Part shown: piece after piece, positions 27,309-37,740 of the stretch
Layout of the letters: each line of letters opens with the position of its first letter
Position numbering within the stretch: position 1 is the stretch's first letter
Origin: Nitrospira sp.
GTDB lineage: Bacteria > Nitrospirota > Nitrospiria > Nitrospirales > Nitrospiraceae
Assembly: GCA_029194535.1 (NCBI GenBank)
Contig: JARFXR010000001.1
Location: 2,178,721-2,242,720, forward strand
DNA length: 64,000 nucleotides
Direction: 5' to 3'
Notes under the pieces: model-generated
What the model was told of the DNA's origin: nothing
The model's input: only the letters and a program-made list of their open reading frames with translations
The model's database searches: none
Made by a program: the position numbers and the translations under genes

Positions 27309-30300
27309 TCATTCGTCCGGATCGTTCCATCGTCGATGGACCAACTCATATAATACCGGTAACACGACCAAAATCAAAAACGCCGCGGTCAGCATCCCGC
27401 CGACCACCACGCGGGCCAGCGGCTTCTGGGCCTGGGAGCCGATCCCCGTCGCCAGGGCCGCCGGCAGCAATCCGATGGCGGCTCCCAAGGTGGCCATGAG
27501 GATCGGCCGCATCTGTACGTCGGCCCCTTTGATGACCGCTTCCCGAAGACTCACGCCGGTCATGCGAAATTCCTCGATGCGTGAAATCAACAACACGCCG
27601 CCGAGGATCGCCACGCCGAGGGTGGAGATCACCCCGACGGCCGCCGAAATACTGAAGTGAGTCTGCGTCAACACCAGCGAGAGCACGCCGCCGACCAGGG
27701 CAAAGGGCACCGTCGCGAGCACCAGCAACGCATTTCTCAACGAGTCGAACGTCGTATACAGCAGGAACAGAATGATCACCAGACTGACCGGCACGATGGT
27801 CAACAGTCGTGTCTGCTCGTCTTTCAGCTGATCGTACTGTCCGGCCCATTCCATGCGATACCGCTCCGGCAGCGTCACTTCCTTCCCCAATCTCGCCTGG
27901 GCTTCTTCCACCGTGCTTTGCAAATCGCGCTCGCGTACGCTGAATTTGATGGGAATGTAGCGCTCGTTGTTTTCCCGATAGATGATGAAGGCCCCCGTCT
28001 GAGAGGTGATCGTGGCCAGTTGCTTCAACGGGATCCGCGCGCCGTCCGGTGTGCTCACAAGGATGTTGCTGATGGACTCGACGTCTTGGCGGAACTCCGG
28101 CATGAACCGCACCACCAGGTCGATCAGGCGCTCGCCTTCAAAGACCTGCGTGACCGCCTGGCCGCCGACCGCCGCCTGCACCACGGCATTGACGTCCGCC
28201 ACCTGCAGGCCGTATCGCGCGCTGGTTTCGCGGTCCACTTGGATCAAGAGGTTCGGCTGGCCGACGAGCCGGAAGATGCCGAGATCCTTCACGCCCTTGA
28301 CCTCCTTCATGACGCTCTCGATTTCCACCGCCTTGGATTCCAAGGTTTTGAGGTCGCGGCCGAAGAGCTTGATCGAGTTTTCTCCCTTGACCCCCGACAT
28401 GGCTTCTTCGACGTTGTCCTGGATGACCTGGGAAAAGTTGAAGATGACCCCCGGGATCTTGTGCAGGCGGCCTTCGATTTCCTGGATCAATCCGTCCTTG
28501 TCCAGGCCGGAGCGCCATTCCTTCTTCGGCTTCAAATTGGCCAGGAACTCCGCGTTGAAGAAGCTGGTCGGATCCGTCCCGTCGTCCGGCCGGCCCAGCT
28601 GCGAGACGACCGTCGTCACCTCCGGCGAGTCGCGAAACATTCCCCGGATGTCGCCGGCCAGGCGGGCGGCCTGTTGAAAGGAGATGTCCACCGGCATCGT
28701 CGCCCGTACCCAGAGGTTGCCTTCCTCCAGAGCCGGCATGAACTCCCCGCCGAGCGATCGTAGCGCCACAAAGGTCAGGAACAGCAGGCCCGCCGCCACG
28801 CCCAGGACCGGCAGGCGATGGTCGAGGGAGAAGCCGAGAATGCGGTGATACAGCCGCCGGACCACTCGCACGACCGCCGTATCCTCTTCGCTGAGCGGTC
28901 CCTGCAACAGAAACGAACAGAGGACGGGCGCAAGGGTAAAGGCCATGATCAAGGCCCCGACCAAGGCGAATCCATATGTCACGGACATGGGCGCGAAGAT
29001 CTTGCCGGGGACTCCCGTCATCGTGAACAGCGGAATGAAGGCCACGACGATGATCGCCGTCGAGAAGAAGATGGGCCGCCCGACCTGGCGCGCGGCGCGT
29101 ACGATCTGTTGGTTGACCGTGAGGTTCTGAGTCTTCGCATGCGCCAGATGAAAGAAGATGCTTTCGACCATGATGAGGGTCGCGTCCACGATGATGCCGA
29201 AGTCGATGGAGCCGAGCGAGATGAGATTGGCCGATTGGCCGACCAGGACCATCATGCTGAACGTGAACAGGAGCGAGAGGGGGATGGTCAGGGCGACGAT
29301 CAGGGCCGCGCGGAAATGCCCTAGGAAGACGAAGAGAATCAGGAACACCAGCACCATGCCGCTGACGAGAATATCCGTTACGGTCTCGACGGTCGTATGG
29401 ATCAGCGCCGTCCGGTCGTAAAACGTCGTGACCTTCACCCCTGCCGGCAGTTTCCAGGAATTCAAGTCCTGCACCTTGGCTCGGACGCTGTCGAGGACCG
29501 GCAGGGCTTTGTAGCCGCGTTGGAGCAGCACCACGCCTTCCACGACGTCGTCCCGATCGTCGATGCCGACTTTCCCGAGGCGCACGCGATGGCCCACGGA
29601 TACGGTGCCGAGCGATTTCACGAACACCGGCGTCCCGTCCTTGGACGTCACCATGACGTTTTCGATGTCTTTGAGATCGTCGATGAGTCCGAGGCCTCGA
29701 ATATTGTAGTTTTGTGAACCGACCGTCAGATAATTGCCTCCGACGTTGGCGTTGCTGTTGGCGAGGGCGTGCATGACCTGGGAGAGACTCACGCCGTAGG
29801 AGATCAGTTTTCCCGGATCGATGTCGATGTGGTATTCCTTCGTCGTCCCGCCGAAGGCCGTCACGTCGATCACGCCGGGGATGCGCCGGAACTCGCGGCG
29901 CACCTGCCAGTCCTGAATCGTCTTGAGATCCGTCAGCGAGGTCGCGCCCGAACCGGTCATCTCGTATCGATAGATTTCCGCGATGGCCCACCAGGGCGAC
30001 AGGCTCGGTTGCACTCCGTTCGGGAGTTGCACCGACATCAGCCGGTTCAGCACCTCCTGCCGGTCGCGGAAAATGTCCGTCCCGAAGTCGAAGTAAACCT
30101 TGATGTCGCTCAAGCCGAAGATCGAGAGGGACCGGACGTCCTTGAGACCCGGCATGCCGGTCAGCGCAACCTCGATCGGAATCGTGATCTGCCGTTCGAT
30201 TTCTTCGGCCGACCAGCCCGGATTCTGAGTGATCAGCTCGACCATGGGAGGAGACGGGTCCGGATAGGCCACGATGTCGAGAAGATGAAAGGCGTAGAGG

Positions 30301-30380
30301 CCGCCGAAGAGAAGGGCCAAGCCCAACGTGCACAGCAGGAACCGTTGGACCAGAGAGATTTCGACAATGCGGGCGATCAT
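27309..30380 (-). CDS. RND heavy-metal efflux pump, CzcA/CusA family
   Basis: 1023 residues, full length. N-terminal helix VQRFLLCTLGLALLFGGLYA; TM4 carries SLGSIDFGIIVDATLIMVES with D393, D399 and E406, the proton-relay trio of CzcA. The typical GVISTLGVAILGGVLL and MRPILMATLGAAIG are near the end. It exports divalent metal from the periplasm in exchange for protons, as a trimer with the fusion and outer-membrane proteins encoded upstream. The CzcA-like trio favours Zn/Co/Cd/Ni over Cu/Ag, but the metal is not proven. Confidence 0.92.
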   Translation of the reverse strand: MIARIVEISLVQRFLLCTLGLALLFGGLYAFHLLDIVAYPDPSPPMVELITQNPGWSAEEIERQITIPIEVALTGMPGLKDVRSLSIFGLSDIKVYFDFGTDIFRDRQEVLNRLMSVQLPNGVQPSLSPWWAIAEIYRYEMTGSGATSLTDLKTIQDWQVRREFRRIPGVIDVTAFGGTTKEYHIDIDPGKLISYGVSLSQVMHALANSNANVGGNYLTVGSQNYNIRGLGLIDDLKDIENVMVTSKDGTPVFVKSLGTVSVGHRVRLGKVGIDDRDDVVEGVVLLQRGYKALPVLDSVRAKVQDLNSWKLPAGVKVTTFYDRTALIHTTVETVTDILVSGMVLVFLILFVFLGHFRAALIVALTIPLSLLFTFSMMVLVGQSANLISLGSIDFGIIVDATLIMVESIFFHLAHAKTQNLTVNQQIVRAARQVGRPIFFSTAIIVVAFIPLFTMTGVPGKIFAPMSVTYGFALVGALIMAFTLAPVLCSFLLQGPLSEEDTAVVRVVRRLYHRILGFSLDHRLPVLGVAAGLLFLTFVALRSLGGEFMPALEEGNLWVRATMPVDISFQQAARLAGDIRGMFRDSPEVTTVVSQLGRPDDGTDPTSFFNAEFLANLKPKKEWRSGLDKDGLIQEIEGRLHKIPGVIFNFSQVIQDNVEEAMSGVKGENSIKLFGRDLKTLESKAVEIESVMKEVKGVKDLGIFRLVGQPNLLIQVDRETSARYGLQVADVNAVVQAAVGGQAVTQVFEGERLIDLVVRFMPEFRQDVESISNILVSTPDGARIPLKQLATITSQTGAFIIYRENNERYIPIKFSVRERDLQSTVEEAQARLGKEVTLPERYRMEWAGQYDQLKDEQTRLLTIVPVSLVIILFLLYTTFDSLRNALLVLATVPFALVGGVLSLVLTQTHFSISAAVGVISTLGVAILGGVLLISRIEEFRMTGVSLREAVIKGADVQMRPILMATLGAAIGLLPAALATGIGSQAQKPLARVVVGGMLTAAFLILVVLPVLYELVHRRWNDPDE

Positions 30381-30430
30381 GGGGCGGAGCGTCTGTCCGA
30401 TGAAGAGCGAGAGGCTGGCGGCAAGATCGA

Positions 30431-31642
30431 CTATCCTTTGGCTTGTTGTCCCTTGATGAGGACCGCGCCCTTGATGACGATCCGCTGCCCGGAGGTCAAA
30501 CCCTCGACGACGCGAACCTGGTCGGGCGAGATCGGCATGACGGTCACTTCCCGTTTCACGTACCGGTCGTCCCCTTCTACGAGGTAGACGAACTGCTTGC
30601 CCTCGTCCTCGAGAACCGCTTCTCTGGGAATCGTCAGGAGCGGGGTTGTGCCGCCCACGCGCAGAACCAGACGGGCGAACATTTCCGGCTTGAGTTTGTT
30701 CTCCTGGTTGTTCACCCAGGCGCGCACTTTGATGGTTCTGGTGGTCGGATCGACGACGTCGCCGATGGCCGCGACCGTAGCCGGGAAGGCGATGCCCGGA
30801 TAGGCTTCGACGATCACCTTGGCGTACTGTCCCTCCTTGACCAGAGCCAGGTCACGCTCGTAGACGTCCGCCACTACCTGCAACATGGCCAGATCGGCCA
30901 CCGTGAAGAGGACTTGGCCCGGGTCGCCGCCGACGGACTGACCCGGCGTGACGGCGCGTTCGACGACGACGCCGGCCAACGGGCTCTTCAGTTCGAACCG
31001 CGAGGTGATCTTCTGTTTGTCCAACGGCTTGTTCAGCTCTTCCTGGGGAATCTTGAGGGACAACAGGCGCTCTTTAGCTCGACGGAACTCGGCACGGGCC
31101 TTGACCAGCTGGTTCTCGCTCAGCTTGAGATCCTTCAGCGGCAGGGCCTTGTTCTCGTAGAGGTCTTTCGCCAGTTCATGCGCCCGGATCGCGTATTGAA
31201 GATCCGAATCTTCCTTGACGTATTCTGAATAGGCCTGGGCGATGTCGGGGCTGTCCACCACCAGCACGACATCTCCGGCCTTGACGTGATCCCCGAGGTG
31301 CGCGCGAACCTCGACCACCCGTCCCTGCAGCGGCGAGGAAATGCGGGAATAGCGGTCCTCCCCGTAGGCGACCTTCCCCGACAGCGTCAGGTCGTGCTCG
31401 CCGGATCCCATTTCGACGGTGCCGATTTCGACCCGTGGTCTTGAATCCGCCGGCTGCGTGACGGTTTTCGGAGTGGCGGCGTTGGAATGAGGCGGCTGGT
31501 CTGCGCGGCCGCAGGCGGACAGCAGGAAGAAGGCTAAGGTTAAGGTTGAGGTTAAGGGTAAGGACGTGCCCCTGAGGAGAGACCGGACAAGTTCCTTCGA
31601 ACTCATCCGATTCTGAACCTCAACCTGAACCTTCCGCTTCAC
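30431..31642 (-). CDS. RND efflux membrane-fusion lipoprotein (CusB/CzcB-like)
   Basis: 403 residues. The hydrophobic core ends in the lipobox LLSAC, so the protein is lipid-anchored. Then come a biotinyl-lipoyl half (GRVVEVRAHLGDHVKAGDVV), a coiled-coil hairpin (LKDLKLSENQLVKARAEFRR), the second lipoyl half (FELKSPLAGVVVERAVTPGQ) and beta-barrel domains. The GTG at 31642 has aggag 8 nt upstream and overlaps the preceding stop (GTGA); an internal ATG at 31606 is an alternative. The coding start can form a 21-bp mRNA hairpin (see findings). Confidence 0.9.
   Translation of the reverse strand: MKRKVQVEVQNRMSSKELVRSLLRGTSLPLTSTLTLAFFLLSACGRADQPPHSNAATPKTVTQPADSRPRVEIGTVEMGSGEHDLTLSGKVAYGEDRYSRISSPLQGRVVEVRAHLGDHVKAGDVVLVVDSPDIAQAYSEYVKEDSDLQYAIRAHELAKDLYENKALPLKDLKLSENQLVKARAEFRRAKERLLSLKIPQEELNKPLDKQKITSRFELKSPLAGVVVERAVTPGQSVGGDPGQVLFTVADLAMLQVVADVYERDLALVKEGQYAKVIVEAYPGIAFPATVAAIGDVVDPTTRTIKVRAWVNNQENKLKPEMFARLVLRVGGTTPLLTIPREAVLEDEGKQFVYLVEGDDRYVKREVTVMPISPDQVRVVEGLTSGQRIVIKGAVLIKGQQAKG
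31536..31633 (-). promoter_or_regulatory. Inverted repeat forming an mRNA hairpin at the start of the fusion-protein gene
   Basis: Arms 31633-31613 and 31556-31536 pair in 19 of 21 positions (mRNA AAGGUU-rich arm with CUUAAC-rich arm). The 56-nt loop contains the alternative ATG at 31606. It lies within the coding sequence right after the GTG start codon. Confidence 0.55.
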
Positions 31643-32970
31643 GAGCGGATCTCCTGACCCACCGCGCTTTCCAATTGGAACAGATTGTGTTGATAGGTAA
31701 AAAGGGCCTCGATGTAATTTTGTTGAATGGTGCGGGAGGTGCGTGCTGCATCGAGTAGATCGAGAATGGTGGCCCCTCCCCGTTCATACGCACGTTCGAC
31801 GATCGTCAAGGTCGATCGGGCGTCGTCGAGAATGCCGCCGACAAATGCTTCGACAAGCCGGCGGCTTTGAATCAAGTTTCGATAGGCGACTTCGACCTCA
31901 TTTTCCACCTGATTTACCGTTTTATTCAAGTCCGCTTCTGCGGTTTGGACTGCGACCTCCGCCTGCTGGATGCCGCCTTGATTCCGGTTGAACAGGGGAA
32001 TGGGGATCCCGAAATTCAGCACCCATTGCTGGGGATTGTCCGGACCCCGCGATCCTTGAATCTCATAGCCGGCGCCGACGGTGACATCGGGAACTCGATA
32101 GGCCTTGGCCAGTCGGAGGTCGGACTCCCGTTGCGACTGGGCGAACCGCTTGGCCTTGACGTCGGGTCGCAGGTCGATCGCGGTCACCCGGAGCTTGTTG
32201 ATGTCCGGATCGATACGCCGGAAGTCCATGTCGGTGGTCAACTCCATGGTCGTCTTCGGGGAGAGCCTCAAGAGTTGCCGCAGATCGCCGCGCGCCACCT
32301 CGGCCTCCTGCAGGGACTGGATGACCTGAGACTGAAAATCGACCATCTGCAGCCGGATCCGGATCAAGTCCACTTCCGCGATGTACCCCTTCTTGAAGCG
32401 AATCGTATTGATGTCGAGGATGCGGGCGAATCGGTCGCGGTTCTCCTCGGCCAGATTGAGCCGGCGTTGCGCCAATTGGATACGGTAGTACGTATCCTTG
32501 ACCGTGAACCCCAGCTGGCGCACAGCATCCTCGAACGCGGCTTCCGCCGATTGGGTTCCGAACGCGGCGCTCTCGATGCGATAGCCGCGTTTGCCGGCCA
32601 GCTCGAACAACTGTTGCACGATCATGGCGAGCTGCCCGCTGTTGTTCAGGTTGAATCCCTGCGTGTAGGAGCTCAGGGTGCCGATGAAGGCCACGGGGTT
32701 GGGGAAGAGCGCGGCCGTAATCTGCTGGCCCTTGTTGTAGTCGATGCCGTACTTGGTGATCAGAACGGACAGGTTCTGCTTGATGAACAGCGCGAGCGCT
32801 TCGTTGAGACTCAGCCGGATGACCGCAGGAGGCTCCGACGGCGAGGGCGGCCCTGGTAGAGATGGTGAGGCAGGCTGTGCCGCAGTGGTCGTGGAGTAAC
32901 TGATGGTCAGGAGGCTGAAACCGAGAAGAATCCAGGATAGAAACCGTCGTCGAAGAGGTGCAACGGACAC
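31639..32970 (-). CDS. Outer-membrane efflux protein (TolC/CzcC-like)
   Basis: 443 residues with a signal peptide (WILLGFSLLTISYSTTTAA) and two OEP repeats rich in long helices (LNEALALFIKQNLSVLITKY; AKAYRVPDVTVGAGYEIQGS; GIPIPLFNRNQGGIQQAEVA). It provides the outer-membrane channel of the pump encoded downstream; the three genes overlap or nearly touch. GTG start at 32970 with aggag upstream; promoter at 33079-33051. Confidence 0.92.
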   Translation of the reverse strand: MSVAPLRRRFLSWILLGFSLLTISYSTTTAAQPASPSLPGPPSPSEPPAVIRLSLNEALALFIKQNLSVLITKYGIDYNKGQQITAALFPNPVAFIGTLSSYTQGFNLNNSGQLAMIVQQLFELAGKRGYRIESAAFGTQSAEAAFEDAVRQLGFTVKDTYYRIQLAQRRLNLAEENRDRFARILDINTIRFKKGYIAEVDLIRIRLQMVDFQSQVIQSLQEAEVARGDLRQLLRLSPKTTMELTTDMDFRRIDPDINKLRVTAIDLRPDVKAKRFAQSQRESDLRLAKAYRVPDVTVGAGYEIQGSRGPDNPQQWVLNFGIPIPLFNRNQGGIQQAEVAVQTAEADLNKTVNQVENEVEVAYRNLIQSRRLVEAFVGGILDDARSTLTIVERAYERGGATILDLLDAARTSRTIQQNYIEALFTYQHNLFQLESAVGQEIRS

Positions 32971-33606: not shown

Positions 33607-34845
33607 ATGAACAGCATCTTCACGATGGTGCTTGCCGGAGGGAAGGGAGAACGGCTGCAACCCTTGACGGAACATCGGGCCAAGCCGGCCGTCCCGTTCG
33701 GCGGGAAATATCGCATCATCGACTTCACCCTCAGCAATTGTTTGAATTCCGGCTTGCGCCGCGTCGCGGTGCTGATTCAGTACAAGTCTCATTCTCTCGA
33801 CCGCCACATTCGGATCGGATGGGATGTGCTGAACGCCGAGTTGGGCGAATACATCGCATCGATCCCGCCGCAACAGCGCATCAGCGAAGAGTGGTACCGG
33901 GGCACCGCCGACGCGGTGTATCAGAATCTCTTCCTCCTGGAAGGCGAACAGTCCGAATATGTGCTCATCTTGGCCGGCGACCACATCTATAAGATGAACT
34001 ACATGGAGATGTTTCACTGGCTGGTCGCGAAGGACGCGGACGTGGTGGTCGGAGCCATCGACATTCCTATTCAGGAGGCCGGCCGGTTCGGCGTGATGGC
34101 GGTGAACGAAGATTACCGGGTCACGCGCTTCGATGAAAAACCCACGAATCCGATTCCCATTCCGAACGATCCGAACGTGGCGTTCGGCTCGATGGGCATC
34201 TACCTGTTCCGCACCAAGAGCCTGCGTGAAGAGTTGATCGCCGACGCTAAGGAAGGCAGCGCGCACGATTTCGGGAAAAACATCATCCCCCGCATGCTTG
34301 CCAATAGAAAGGTCTATGCCTTCAAGTTTCAGGACGCCAACCGGAAGGCGGTCAAGTACTGGCGCGATATCGGAACTCTCGACGCCTATTGGGAAGCCAA
34401 CCTCGACCTGGTCGCCGTAGACCCGCTCTTCAATCTGTACGACCAGCAGTGGCCGATTCGCACCTATCAGGGTCAGTTTCCTCCGGCCAAATTCGTCTTC
34501 GCCCAGGACTACCAGGGCGGCCGCATGGGCGTGGCGCTGGACTCGGTCGTCTGCGGCGGCTGCATCATCTCCGGCGGTCGCGTTCAGAACAGCGTGCTGT
34601 CTCCGAACGTCCGGATTCAGGACCATGCCGACGTCCGCGACTCCGTGATCATGGAGAATGTCGAAATCGGTGAGCACAGCCGGATTCGTCGCGCCATCAT
34701 CGACAAGGACGTCGTCATTCCGGCGAAAACGGAGATCGGCTACGACCGCGAAGCGGACGCCCAGCGATTCACGGTCACGGAATCCGGGCTCGTCGTGATC
34801 TCCAAGGGAATGAAGCTGCATGCCTCCGTCGATTCATCCGGTTGA
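33607..34845 (+). CDS. glgC: Glucose-1-phosphate adenylyltransferase
   Basis: 412 residues. It makes ADP-glucose for glycogen. VLAGGKGERLQPLTEHRAKP (substrate loop), GKYRIIDFTLSNCLNSG, WYRGTADAVYQN, LAGDHIYKMNY, RFDEKP and GSMGIYLF are all family landmarks. The C-terminal left-handed beta-helix is present (VRIQDHADVRDSVIMENVEI). The ATG at 33607 is the family start. Its last 26 nt overlap the first half of the split helicase, so the helicase genes are translationally coupled to it. Confidence 0.95.
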   Translation: MNSIFTMVLAGGKGERLQPLTEHRAKPAVPFGGKYRIIDFTLSNCLNSGLRRVAVLIQYKSHSLDRHIRIGWDVLNAELGEYIASIPPQQRISEEWYRGTADAVYQNLFLLEGEQSEYVLILAGDHIYKMNYMEMFHWLVAKDADVVVGAIDIPIQEAGRFGVMAVNEDYRVTRFDEKPTNPIPIPNDPNVAFGSMGIYLFRTKSLREELIADAKEGSAHDFGKNIIPRMLANRKVYAFKFQDANRKAVKYWRDIGTLDAYWEANLDLVAVDPLFNLYDQQWPIRTYQGQFPPAKFVFAQDYQGGRMGVALDSVVCGGCIISGGRVQNSVLSPNVRIQDHADVRDSVIMENVEIGEHSRIRRAIIDKDVVIPAKTEIGYDREADAQRFTVTESGLVVISKGMKLHASVDSSG

Positions 34846-36679
34846 CCTCATCACGGCCCTCAGACAGAAACACCTGACGCCCGCCATCGTGTTTTTGACA
34901 TCTCGCCGCGCCTGCGACGAGGCGATGCAGGCCTTCGACCACACCGAAGCGCTCTTGCCTCCCGCCCGCCAGGACGCTATCGCCAAGGTGCTGGAACAGG
35001 TCATCACTCAATATCCCAGCATCGCGGAACACCCGTTGATCCCCACGGTACAGCGCATCGGCGTCGCGGCCCATCATGCCGGCCACCTTCCCTCGTGGAA
35101 AATTGCCGTGGAGGAGCTCATGCGACACGGTTGCCTGGACGCCGTGTTCGCCACCACGACCCTGGCGGCCGGCGTGGACTTTCCCGCCCGCACGGTGATC
35201 ATCACGCAGTCCAGCATCCGCAAGGCGCGTGACTTCACCGACCTGACGATCGGAGAGGTCCAGCAGATCGCCGGACGGGCCGGCCGCCGCGGCAAGGACC
35301 TTGTCGGGTTCGCCATCGTGACGCCGTCGCCCTACATCGACCTGGGTGTGCTCACCAAAGGGTTCACCGGTCATCCGGAGGCGATCAACAGCCAATTCGT
35401 CATCACCTATCCGATGGTCCTCAATTTGCTCAAGGCCCACCCGCTCGATCAGATGCAGTCCATCCTCGCCAAGAGCTTTGCGCAATTTCAGTTGAACCAA
35501 CGAGCCGAGGCGATCGAGCAGAAGCTGGACGACGTGCACCGGCAGATGGAGCCCTACGGCCCGCGTGTGTGCACCGATTGGATCTCCCAATGGCACATGT
35601 TCGATCAGGTCCGCCGGCAGCGGCATCATCGTCCGATGATCCAACGGCACGAGCCGCCGGAGGTGACGGCACGGTTCCACTTTCTGAGTCCCGGCCGGGT
35701 GGTGGGATTATCCAAGACTCGCGGCGTCGTCCTGCGGCAGTATCGGAGCAAGGGCCAGAAGAGCGCCATGGTCACGGTGCTCCGTCCTGACGGGGCCGTC
35801 ACGGAATGTCCCGCCGCCGTCGTCACCGACGTCTTCGACCGGGTGTTGGAATGCCGGGAGTCTCCGTCCTATCCCTGGTGCACGGCCGAGAGTTTCGATC
35901 TCCTGCTGGACAGCATGAAGGATCTCCCCGGCAGGCTGCCGATCCTGCCGATTCTCGTCTCGAAAGATGATGAGCCGATCCCCGACTCGATCGTGCAAAC
36001 GTTGGGTGACTTTTCCTGCCCGACCTGTCCTTCGCGGTCCGCCTGCCAAAAGGACTACGCGAACGCTTCCAAGTTGCGACAGGAACAGCAGCGGCACATG
36101 AAGTCGATTCAAGCGCTGCGCACGAGCCTGTGGCATCGGTTTCAGGAGCGGATCGAAGTGCTGCAGAAGTTCGGGTATCTCACCGCCACGGCGCAACTGA
36201 CGGAAGCGGGCGAATGGGCCCGCCTCATCCGCATCGACCATTCGCTCCTCATCACCGAGCTGATTCGCGCGGAGGCCTTCACCGGCGGGGATCCGCCGCT
36301 CCTGGCGGCGGTTATGTCGAGCATTGCGCACGACGACGACCGGCCCGGCCTGTTCCCGAGAATCAGCTCGGGGCTAGGCTCATTATTAGGTCAGGTTCGA
36401 AAACTCGCCGAATCCCTCGCTCCCTATGAAGAGGCGCCGCTCTTGCGCGCAGACATCGCGGCGGTGACGGAGCGGTGGATCGGCGATCCGAACCTCACAT
36501 GGATCGGCCTCTGCAAGATGACAACCATGGCCGAGGGAGACATCTACCGGCTCCTCGCCAGAACGTTGGAGTTTCTCTCGCAGCTGCACGGACTCAAGGA
36601 CACGCATCCGGAGTTGGCAGACTGCGCGTCCAAGGCGATCGCCGCGCTGCGGCGCGGCGTGCTGGAAGAATTACCGTGA
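34820..36679 (+). CDS. SKI2/Mtr4-like helicase, C-terminal half (second RecA domain plus DSHCT-like region)
   Basis: 619 residues that start right at helicase motif IV (LTPAIVFLTSRRACDEA, 19-35). They contain VAAHHAGHLP, motif V (ATTTLAAGVDFPARTVI, 111-127) and motif VI (QQIAGRAGRRGKD, 148-160). An SH3-like beta region follows, then a cysteine cluster (CPTCPSRSAC) and a DSHCT-like end (MTTMAEGDIYRLLARTLEFL). There is no Walker A or DExH; those are in the next gene, which overlaps by 4 nt (GTGA). Together they make one complete helicase, but in the wrong order. Alone this half cannot hydrolyse ATP. Confidence 0.9.
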   Translation: MPPSIHPVDLITALRQKHLTPAIVFLTSRRACDEAMQAFDHTEALLPPARQDAIAKVLEQVITQYPSIAEHPLIPTVQRIGVAAHHAGHLPSWKIAVEELMRHGCLDAVFATTTLAAGVDFPARTVIITQSSIRKARDFTDLTIGEVQQIAGRAGRRGKDLVGFAIVTPSPYIDLGVLTKGFTGHPEAINSQFVITYPMVLNLLKAHPLDQMQSILAKSFAQFQLNQRAEAIEQKLDDVHRQMEPYGPRVCTDWISQWHMFDQVRRQRHHRPMIQRHEPPEVTARFHFLSPGRVVGLSKTRGVVLRQYRSKGQKSAMVTVLRPDGAVTECPAAVVTDVFDRVLECRESPSYPWCTAESFDLLLDSMKDLPGRLPILPILVSKDDEPIPDSIVQTLGDFSCPTCPSRSACQKDYANASKLRQEQQRHMKSIQALRTSLWHRFQERIEVLQKFGYLTATAQLTEAGEWARLIRIDHSLLITELIRAEAFTGGDPPLLAAVMSSIAHDDDRPGLFPRISSGLGSLLGQVRKLAESLAPYEEAPLLRADIAAVTERWIGDPNLTWIGLCKMTTMAEGDIYRLLARTLEFLSQLHGLKDTHPELADCASKAIAALRRGVLEELP

Positions 36680-37740
36680 CGACTGACGAACTCGAAACAC
36701 TGCTCGCACAGCAACCGATGGCCCTGTTGCATCGCCTGGCCCGCGGCCGTGTTCACCGACACTTCCGCCTGGGCAAGCGCCGTCTGATCGAGCTGCTGCT
36801 TCGCCATTCGGCGGAAAACCGGGCCGGCTTCGAGTCGGACGTCATGGCCCTCATCGGCGAGCGGCCGGCGAAGCCGGCAGCCCCACCCTCACATCCGCTG
36901 CGCCATGCTTCCCAGGGGAAGAGCCACCACACGCCGCGCCACAAGCCTCCTCACCACGAGGCTGAGTCGCATGAGCCGTCTGCGTCGCTGGGAGAGTGGC
37001 TCTCCGGTATCGGCGTGCCGCCGCCGCAGCCGTTTGTGCCGGACGCGTGGCAAGTGGAAGCCGTGGAGCGGTTGCAGCAGACGGACGTGGTCGTGAGCGT
37101 GCCGACCGGAAGCGGCAAAACTTACGTGGCGGTGGAAGCGGCCAGACGCGCCATGGAGGACAACCGCACCGTCATCTACACATCGCCCCTCAAGGCCCTG
37201 TCCAATACCAAATTCACGGAATTCTCCCGTATCTTCGGAGCAGATCGAGTGGGGATTCTCACCGGAGACCGGCGGGACAACGGTCAGGCGCCCCTACTGA
37301 TCATGACGACCGAGATCCTGCGCAACCTCCTCTATGATGCGGCAGGAGGCGAGATCGACCTGCGGCTCGACACACTCGGGCTCGTCATCATGGACGAATC
37401 CCAATACATCGCCGATCCGGAGCGAGGGGTGGTGTGGGAAGAAACCATCATCTTTTGTCCATCGCAGGCGAGACTGCTGCTTCTCTCGGCCTCGATCGGC
37501 AACCCACAAGATATCGCCGATTGGCTCACGTCGATTCGTCCGGTCCCCTGCCACCTGATCAAACACAGTAAACGAACCGTACCCCTCCGGGCCGGCTACC
37601 TCCATCCCGACGGCAAGCTCGTCCCGTTGTTCCCCACGCTGGGCATTCCCCATGGCCACGCAGGCCATTGGCATCCCGAAGCCAAACGTCTTTTTGCCAG
37701 ATACGAAGAAGAAACCATGCCGTCGGGCCGCCGGCGCTGA
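36676..37740 (+). CDS. SKI2/Mtr4-like helicase, N-terminal half (ATP-binding RecA domain)
   Basis: 354 residues from the GTG at 36676, which overlaps the preceding stop. A basic/His-rich N-terminal extension (1-110; HASQGKSHHTPRHKPPHHEA) precedes the ATPase domain: VPTGSGKT (Walker A, 142-149), YTSPLKALSNTKF (Ia), LTGDRR, DESQ (motif II, 240-243) followed by YIADPERGVVWEE as in Mtr4, and SASIGN (motif III, 271-276). It stops after LFARYEEETMPSGRRR, just where the other half begins. The two chains probably assemble into one enzyme (inference). Confidence 0.9.
   Translation: MTTDELETLLAQQPMALLHRLARGRVHRHFRLGKRRLIELLLRHSAENRAGFESDVMALIGERPAKPAAPPSHPLRHASQGKSHHTPRHKPPHHEAESHEPSASLGEWLSGIGVPPPQPFVPDAWQVEAVERLQQTDVVVSVPTGSGKTYVAVEAARRAMEDNRTVIYTSPLKALSNTKFTEFSRIFGADRVGILTGDRRDNGQAPLLIMTTEILRNLLYDAAGGEIDLRLDTLGLVIMDESQYIADPERGVVWEETIIFCPSQARLLLLSASIGNPQDIADWLTSIRPVPCHLIKHSKRTVPLRAGYLHPDGKLVPLFPTLGIPHGHAGHWHPEAKRLFARYEEETMPSGRRR

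Follow-up and report, generated by a model that had tools for sequence, protein, structure and literature searches.

A SKI2-like helicase divided between two genes is encoded in this Nitrospira and in nearly all sampled members of its order, and the division is genuine. The genes were found in the window (the whole stretch of 64,000 nucleotides that was analysed), where the gene for the C-terminal half (C-half) precedes the gene for the N-terminal half (N-half). With a probability of about 0.7, we propose that they encode the two chains of one RNA helicase of the HelY/cyanobacterial type with a composite ATP site. The features of the locus are the following.

34820-36679, plus strand: C-half gene, 619 aa, ATG start; RecA2 (motifs IV-VI), winged helix, insert and DSHCT ratchet domain.
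36676-37740, plus strand: N-half gene, 354 aa, GTG start; helical domain, disordered linker, RecA1 (motifs I, II and III) and tail helix.
36676-36679, plus strand: 4-nt overlap GTGA, read from the sequence, in which the C-half stops and the N-half starts.
36676-36855, plus strand: N-terminal helical domain of the N-half, about residues 1-60, predicted from AlphaFold2 helices at 3-60.
37672-37716, plus strand: tail helix of the N-half, residues 333-347, HPEAKRLFARYEEET, defined by conserved positions and a sequence pattern.
34820-34845, plus strand: 26 nt in which the end of glgC overlaps the C-half gene, a feature of the context outside the helicase proper.

Both genes are co-directional and lie downstream of glgC, which ends at 34845, and their ORFs are in different frames. 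In the C-half, the Pfam domain search recognised Helicase_C at residues 78-158 (27.4 bits, cut-off 23.5) and DSHCT at residues 459-615 (87.3 bits, cut-off 22.7) and found no RecA1 domain in the ORF. In the N-half, DEAD was recognised at residues 126-279, and motifs I (PTGSGKT), II (DESQ followed by ADPERGVVWEE) and III (SASI) were read. By phmmer against solved structures, the N-half maps on RecA1 of SKI2W, Dob1 and MTR4 chains (best E 8.9e-39, with Dob1) and the C-half maps after RecA1 of the same chains (best E 7.7e-35). The original prediction had described a first gene with motifs IV to VI and a DSHCT-like end lacking RecA1, which Pfam and phmmer confirmed, and a second gene with Walker A, motif II and motif III, which is borne out by the DEAD match and the motif reading; the GTGA overlap that it had reported is present as well. 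RecA1 with SKI2-type motifs I, II and III is thus carried by the N-half, and RecA2 motifs IV-VI with a C-terminal DSHCT by the C-half. The two RecA domains of a SKI2-like helicase do not lie on one chain here, a variant feature that the relatives in the order share. A search of the window's genome at E 1e-10 detected each half only once, in keeping with the pairing originally proposed, which a complete second N-half elsewhere would have called into question, and no second DSHCT match was found at E 0.1. Two other identities were rejected. As Hel308 DNA helicase, either half scored at most 75.6 bits against NCBIfam equivalog cut-offs of at least 887, and for known anti-phage defence helicases a PADLOC comparison of the two proteins alone matched only helicase-core stretches, with at most 50.9 bits. 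Elsewhere in the window, an ordinary-looking efflux cluster (RND-type pump, membrane-fusion protein and outer-membrane factor, by eye) occupies 27309-32970 on the minus strand.

Single-chain AlphaFold2 models, built on 66-row alignments, reached a mean pLDDT of 78.2 for the N-half and 83.1 for the C-half, and the best Foldseek matches of both were Mtr4/Ski2-type chains. In VIA-align, residues 119-304 of the N-half model were superposed on Mtr4 147-326 (4u4c; Z 24.2, rmsd 1.8, 178 aligned residues) and residues 1-619 of the C-half model on Mtr4 332-1070 (5ooq_A; Z 24.7, rmsd 6.7, 499 aligned residues), so that the ranges of Mtr4 covered by the two predicted models are complementary. The insert of the C-half (about residues 245-459) bears three conserved cysteines and is partly of low confidence. 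When this model was inspected for an arch or KOW domain, strands were seen at 302-331, but pLDDT falls below 50 at 277-289, 298-300 and 341-384; the Pfam MTR4-like stalk scored 14.0 bits in the C-half, below its cut-off of 24.2. The N-half alignments that reach residue 345 use distant segments of the target (to residues 605, 732 and 792 in FRH, SKI2W and Ski2, respectively), and these segments may hint at where the tail helix sits, which we treat as a lead from the models and not as evidence.

The distribution of the two genes was analysed in 61 related genomes. The C-half was present in 60 and the N-half in 59, and in 53 of 60 genomes the N-half match lay directly behind the C-half on the same strand, which is the recurrence of the split order that the original prediction had named as its support. 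In a phylum sample of 295 genomes, for each of which no more than two candidates were scored, matches were obtained in 97 of the 98 genomes from the window's order, and 93 showed two matches. A single match was observed in G093 and G249, where it begins or ends beside a contig end, in G266, where only 90 residues are visible, and in G196. The last genome is 99% complete and has a C-half, and no N-half was detected in it either genome-wide at E 1e-6 or in about 67 kb downstream. Neither half was found in G156, a 2.0 Mb genome of the window's family that is 99% complete. The C-half match of G013 runs into a contig end and no N-half was found. In G027, the complete C-half lies close to the end of one contig, and on another contig the N-half is immediately preceded by a fragment of the C-half end, so that adjacency probably holds there. 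The halves are 7.2 kb apart in G056 and about 25 kb apart in G230 (C35:18003-43281), a member of the window's family. They are never adjacent in the four genomes of the most divergent family, f4: in three of these (G039, G045, G048) they are on different contigs, and in G042 they are separated by 13.5 kb, with N-half matches at the contig end on both strands. Among the 53 adjacent pairs, the 4-nt overlap occurs in 9 and the remaining 44 have spacers of about 7 to 185 nt, so that gene spacing ranges overall from -4 to about 185 nt; an outlier of 337 nt (G022) corresponds to an N-half match in two pieces. As the halves are unlinked in f4 and about 25 kb apart in G230, the proteins would act in trans, so gene order should have no bearing on the enzyme and the word permuted describes a gene arrangement. 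In f4, G056 and G230, where the genes are not adjacent, an operon does not guarantee their co-expression.

The overlap with glgC, by which the original prediction had considered the helicase genes coupled to glgC, was found to be real and almost fixed in the window's family (f1): of the 54 genomes examined, 51 have an overlap of exactly 26 nt between glgC and the beginning of the C-half. The three exceptions are a locus with glgC in two pieces, which is not comparable (L073), one that starts at a contig end (L031) and one without a glgC match (L083). No glgC match was present in the 16 loci of f2 and f3, for which about 2 kb upstream were fetched, and only distant glgC matches (24-25% identity) lie near the f4 N-halves. 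Because the overlap is absent from the f2 and f3 loci, it is not part of the helicase system. The upstream ORFs of seven f2/f3 loci differ and, by eye, offer no clue to function. Polysaccharide-type genes were recognised by eye in the stretch read between the separated halves of G230 (L119, L228, L120), sugar and polysaccharide-type genes lie behind the C-half of G196 (L123), and the f4 N-half adjoins sugar nucleotidyltransferase genes. The helicase locus may be an insertion point for polysaccharide-type clusters.

One-chain relatives were sought in a scan of named genomes, in which 80 of 593 confirmed loci were examined. In all 80, a single ORF contains the N-half followed by the C-half; three ORFs are short (L183, L191 and L203, left out of trees and alignments). 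The relatives among these 80 loci belong mostly to Cyanobacteria and Melainabacteria, with others from Methylomirabilota, Rokubacteria, Actinomycetota, Planctomycetota and one record labelled Thermoplasmata. The split point coincides with the RecA1-RecA2 linker of the fused chains: the C-half starts with MPP(S/A)IHP, at the stretch that lies ahead of motif IV in the fused proteins. Fused relatives with a linker matching the breakpoint, the other support named beforehand, therefore exist. In the phylum sample, at least 14 of the 197 genomes outside the order match, a lower bound because at most two candidates were scored per genome; nine of these 14 matches were inspected, and eight cover RecA1 and RecA2 within a single frame, in the usual order, the ninth (G214) being a match to RecA1 only. 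The strongest match comes from G225, which belongs to the same class though not to the order; it is a one-chain protein of 718 aa (L124:2439-4595) that carries DSHCT and is 33% identical to the joined halves of the window. Judged from frame lengths and not from gene order, no split version was identified in Methylomirabilota, Cyanobacteria or Actinomycetota. In Methylomirabilota, 85 of 95 genomes match the query P0001 at E 1e-15 with frames of at least 714 aa in all but five genomes (G341, 662 aa; G397, 246; G404, 398 and 503; G418, second match, 484; G423, 594 and 706). At E 1e-20, 97 of 98 cyanobacterial genomes match with all frames of at least 727 aa, and 57 of 100 actinomycetotal genomes with all frames of at least 815 aa.

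Conservation was counted on 72 N-half and 73 C-half rows, which are distinct sequences although some may represent one gene cut at different locus ends. In the N-half, K148 of Walker A is invariant in 72/72 rows and D240, E241 and Q243 of motif II in 71/71; in the C-half, R153, R156 and R157 of motif VI and cysteines 400, 403 and 409 are invariant in 73/73. The helicase motifs are all intact, as originally stated, and the ATPase motif residues counted here are invariant across relatives. Motif II reads DExQ in the split type, against DExH in at least 90% of the aligned fused rows. Between the window and five relatives, dN/dS was 0.060-0.089 for the N-half and 0.041-0.155 for the C-half, with dS above 1 in four of the five comparisons; the sole unsaturated comparison gave 0.060 (N-half) and 0.041 (C-half). 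Two parts of the N-half are specific to the split type. The tail helix has H333, L339 and E344 invariant in 71/71 rows, and its pattern HP..[KR].L[FL]..[YF]E recurs in 67 of 72 split rows (including f4, by eye) and in none of the 80 fused ORFs (80 of 593 loci). No N-terminal helical domain was observed among the fused relatives, which match the N-half only from about residue 86 or a later position. It is also absent from the two f4 N-halves that could be read; their ORFs, of 295 and 274 aa, start near residue 65-85 of the window's N-half, and the alignments begin at 99-102. A profile search of the PDB with this domain gave a best E of 0.45, and no Pfam entry matched the region at E 1. A docking role for the tail helix or the N-terminal domain would be a guess.

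Phylogenies were computed as quick IQ-TREE runs with SH-aLRT support only, from 29 split, 78 fused and 4 Hel308-like rows for the N-half and from 29 split and 56 fused rows for the C-half, 22 near-copies and the four Hel308-like rows being left out of the latter. In both trees, a branch with support 100 separates all split rows from the others. The C tree places the split rows as sister to the cyanobacterial-type clade (support 81), and the N tree singles out no neighbour for them. The G225 helicase clusters with Methylomirabilota and Rokubacteria in both. The branches to the split clade are long (2.1 and 2.57 changes per column), which makes its placement uncertain. The trees support membership of the SKI2-like helicases by descent, despite the two chains, and nothing contradicts a putative origin of both halves from one ancestral gene.

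Tandem duplication followed by reciprocal loss, the origin first put forward for this locus, is one route to the split order. By another route, compatible with a two-chain helicase and to which we give nearly even odds, the ancestral gene underwent fission, the N-half was relocated behind the C-half and the N-terminal domain was gained later. It agrees with the position of f4, whose halves are not adjacent and which diverges first within the split clade in the N tree and belongs to a group of three lineages at the base of that clade in the C tree, and with the two readable f4 N-halves, which lack the N-terminal domain as the fused relatives do. However, the f4 state may be secondary, as the halves are also separated by about 25 kb in G230 of the window's family, and the root depends on long branches and SH-aLRT support. 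The non-adjacency and the missing domain in f4 make us lean slightly towards relocation, with the reservation that adjacency was also lost in G230 and G056.

In the two-chain helicase that we propose, the N-half would contribute RecA1 with Walker A, DExQ and the motif III residues, and the C-half RecA2 (motifs V and VI), the winged helix, the insert and the DSHCT ratchet. The chains would associate non-covalently, most likely as a heterodimer, and ATP would be bound between them at the RecA1/RecA2 interface, the RecA domains closing over it; a working enzyme would thus probably require the joining of both pieces. By analogy with its one-chain relatives, the pair may travel 3' to 5' on RNA. We infer the complex, its ATPase and helicase activity, its substrate and its direction, RNA being suggested as substrate by kinship with HelY/cyanobacterial-type helicases, to which ISE2 presumably belongs. 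RNA-activated ATPase and 3'-5' helicase activities have been reported for HelY (PMC8931766). Another paper names chloroplast ISE2 in connection with chloroplast RNA processing (PMC10226603). The complementary domains and structure matches, the breakpoint in the linker and the presence of both halves in nearly all genomes argue for the two-chain motor, as do the joint absence of the halves from G156, the invariant ATPase motifs, the low dN/dS of the unsaturated comparison and the single split branch in each tree.

Against it stand the C-half without a detected N-half in G196 and the separated halves of f4, G056 and G230, where adjacency is evidently dispensable. These observations would suit halves that no longer form one motor, the C-half acting alone (an RNA-binding scaffold, for instance) and the N-half being an ATPase in its own right or having a different partner; the long branches to the split clade mean that function could also have changed. 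We nevertheless regard separate functions as rather improbable, since the invariant motif VI arginines (73 rows) and motif I and II residues (71-72 rows) would be superfluous in a scaffold or in a RecA1 working by itself, and both halves occur together in nearly all sampled genomes. Much less credible is the idea that frameshifting or fusion yields a single permuted chain in which the C-half comes ahead of the N-half. The 4-nt overlap of the window and a 979-aa ORF across both halves in G033 (L034:1501-4440) are compatible with such a chain, but 44 of the 53 adjacent pairs have spacers rather than an overlap, and the G033 frame passes through X, i.e. N bases in the assembly. The apparent fusion was rejected as an assembly gap filled with N; it could enter automatic annotation as a real protein. 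An assembly artefact or a decaying gene, in favour of which nothing was found, is practically discounted by the same order in 53 of 60 independent genomes, by the low dN/dS and by the invariant motifs.

If the two-chain helicase is accepted, it offers a natural system for testing whether the covalent link between RecA domains matters and for studying half-motors singly, and it allows one to ask if chain assembly regulates RNA processing. That assembly of the chains, aided by the tail helix and the N-terminal domain, serves as on/off control of this order-wide RNA helicase is a tentative idea that we hold to be doubtful. For annotation, the DSHCT-type helicase of the order could appear as two truncated genes and hence be overlooked.

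In the usual description, a helicase motor is a single chain whose two linker-joined RecA domains are brought together by ATP. We know of no natural helicase that is cut between its RecA domains, and a limited literature search also gave none. The one-chain bacterial SKI2-like helicases (cyanobacterial type and actinobacterial HelY) have the same domains, motifs and fold as the window proteins, with 35-50% identity to the N-half and about 30-40% to the RecA2 region of the C-half in local alignments, but they run from N to C in one chain and mostly have DExH, and the helical domain and tail helix of the split type were not seen there. Eukaryotic Mtr4/Ski2 proteins are the best solved-structure matches, in sequence and fold, for both halves; they are single chains with a full arch, whereas the C-half insert is partly of low confidence here. 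The cited account of the reverse gyrases of Nanoarchaeum equitans and Methanopyrus kandleri describes a helicase-containing enzyme made as two polypeptides, the chains of N. equitans being the helicase and topoisomerase domains and the cut in M. kandleri not following those domains (PMC8185306). Unlike in these enzymes, the cut reported here falls between the two RecA domains of the motor. Two-polypeptide helicase enzymes are thus already known, and what appears to be new is a conserved SKI2-like motor whose RecA1-RecA2 linker is cut.
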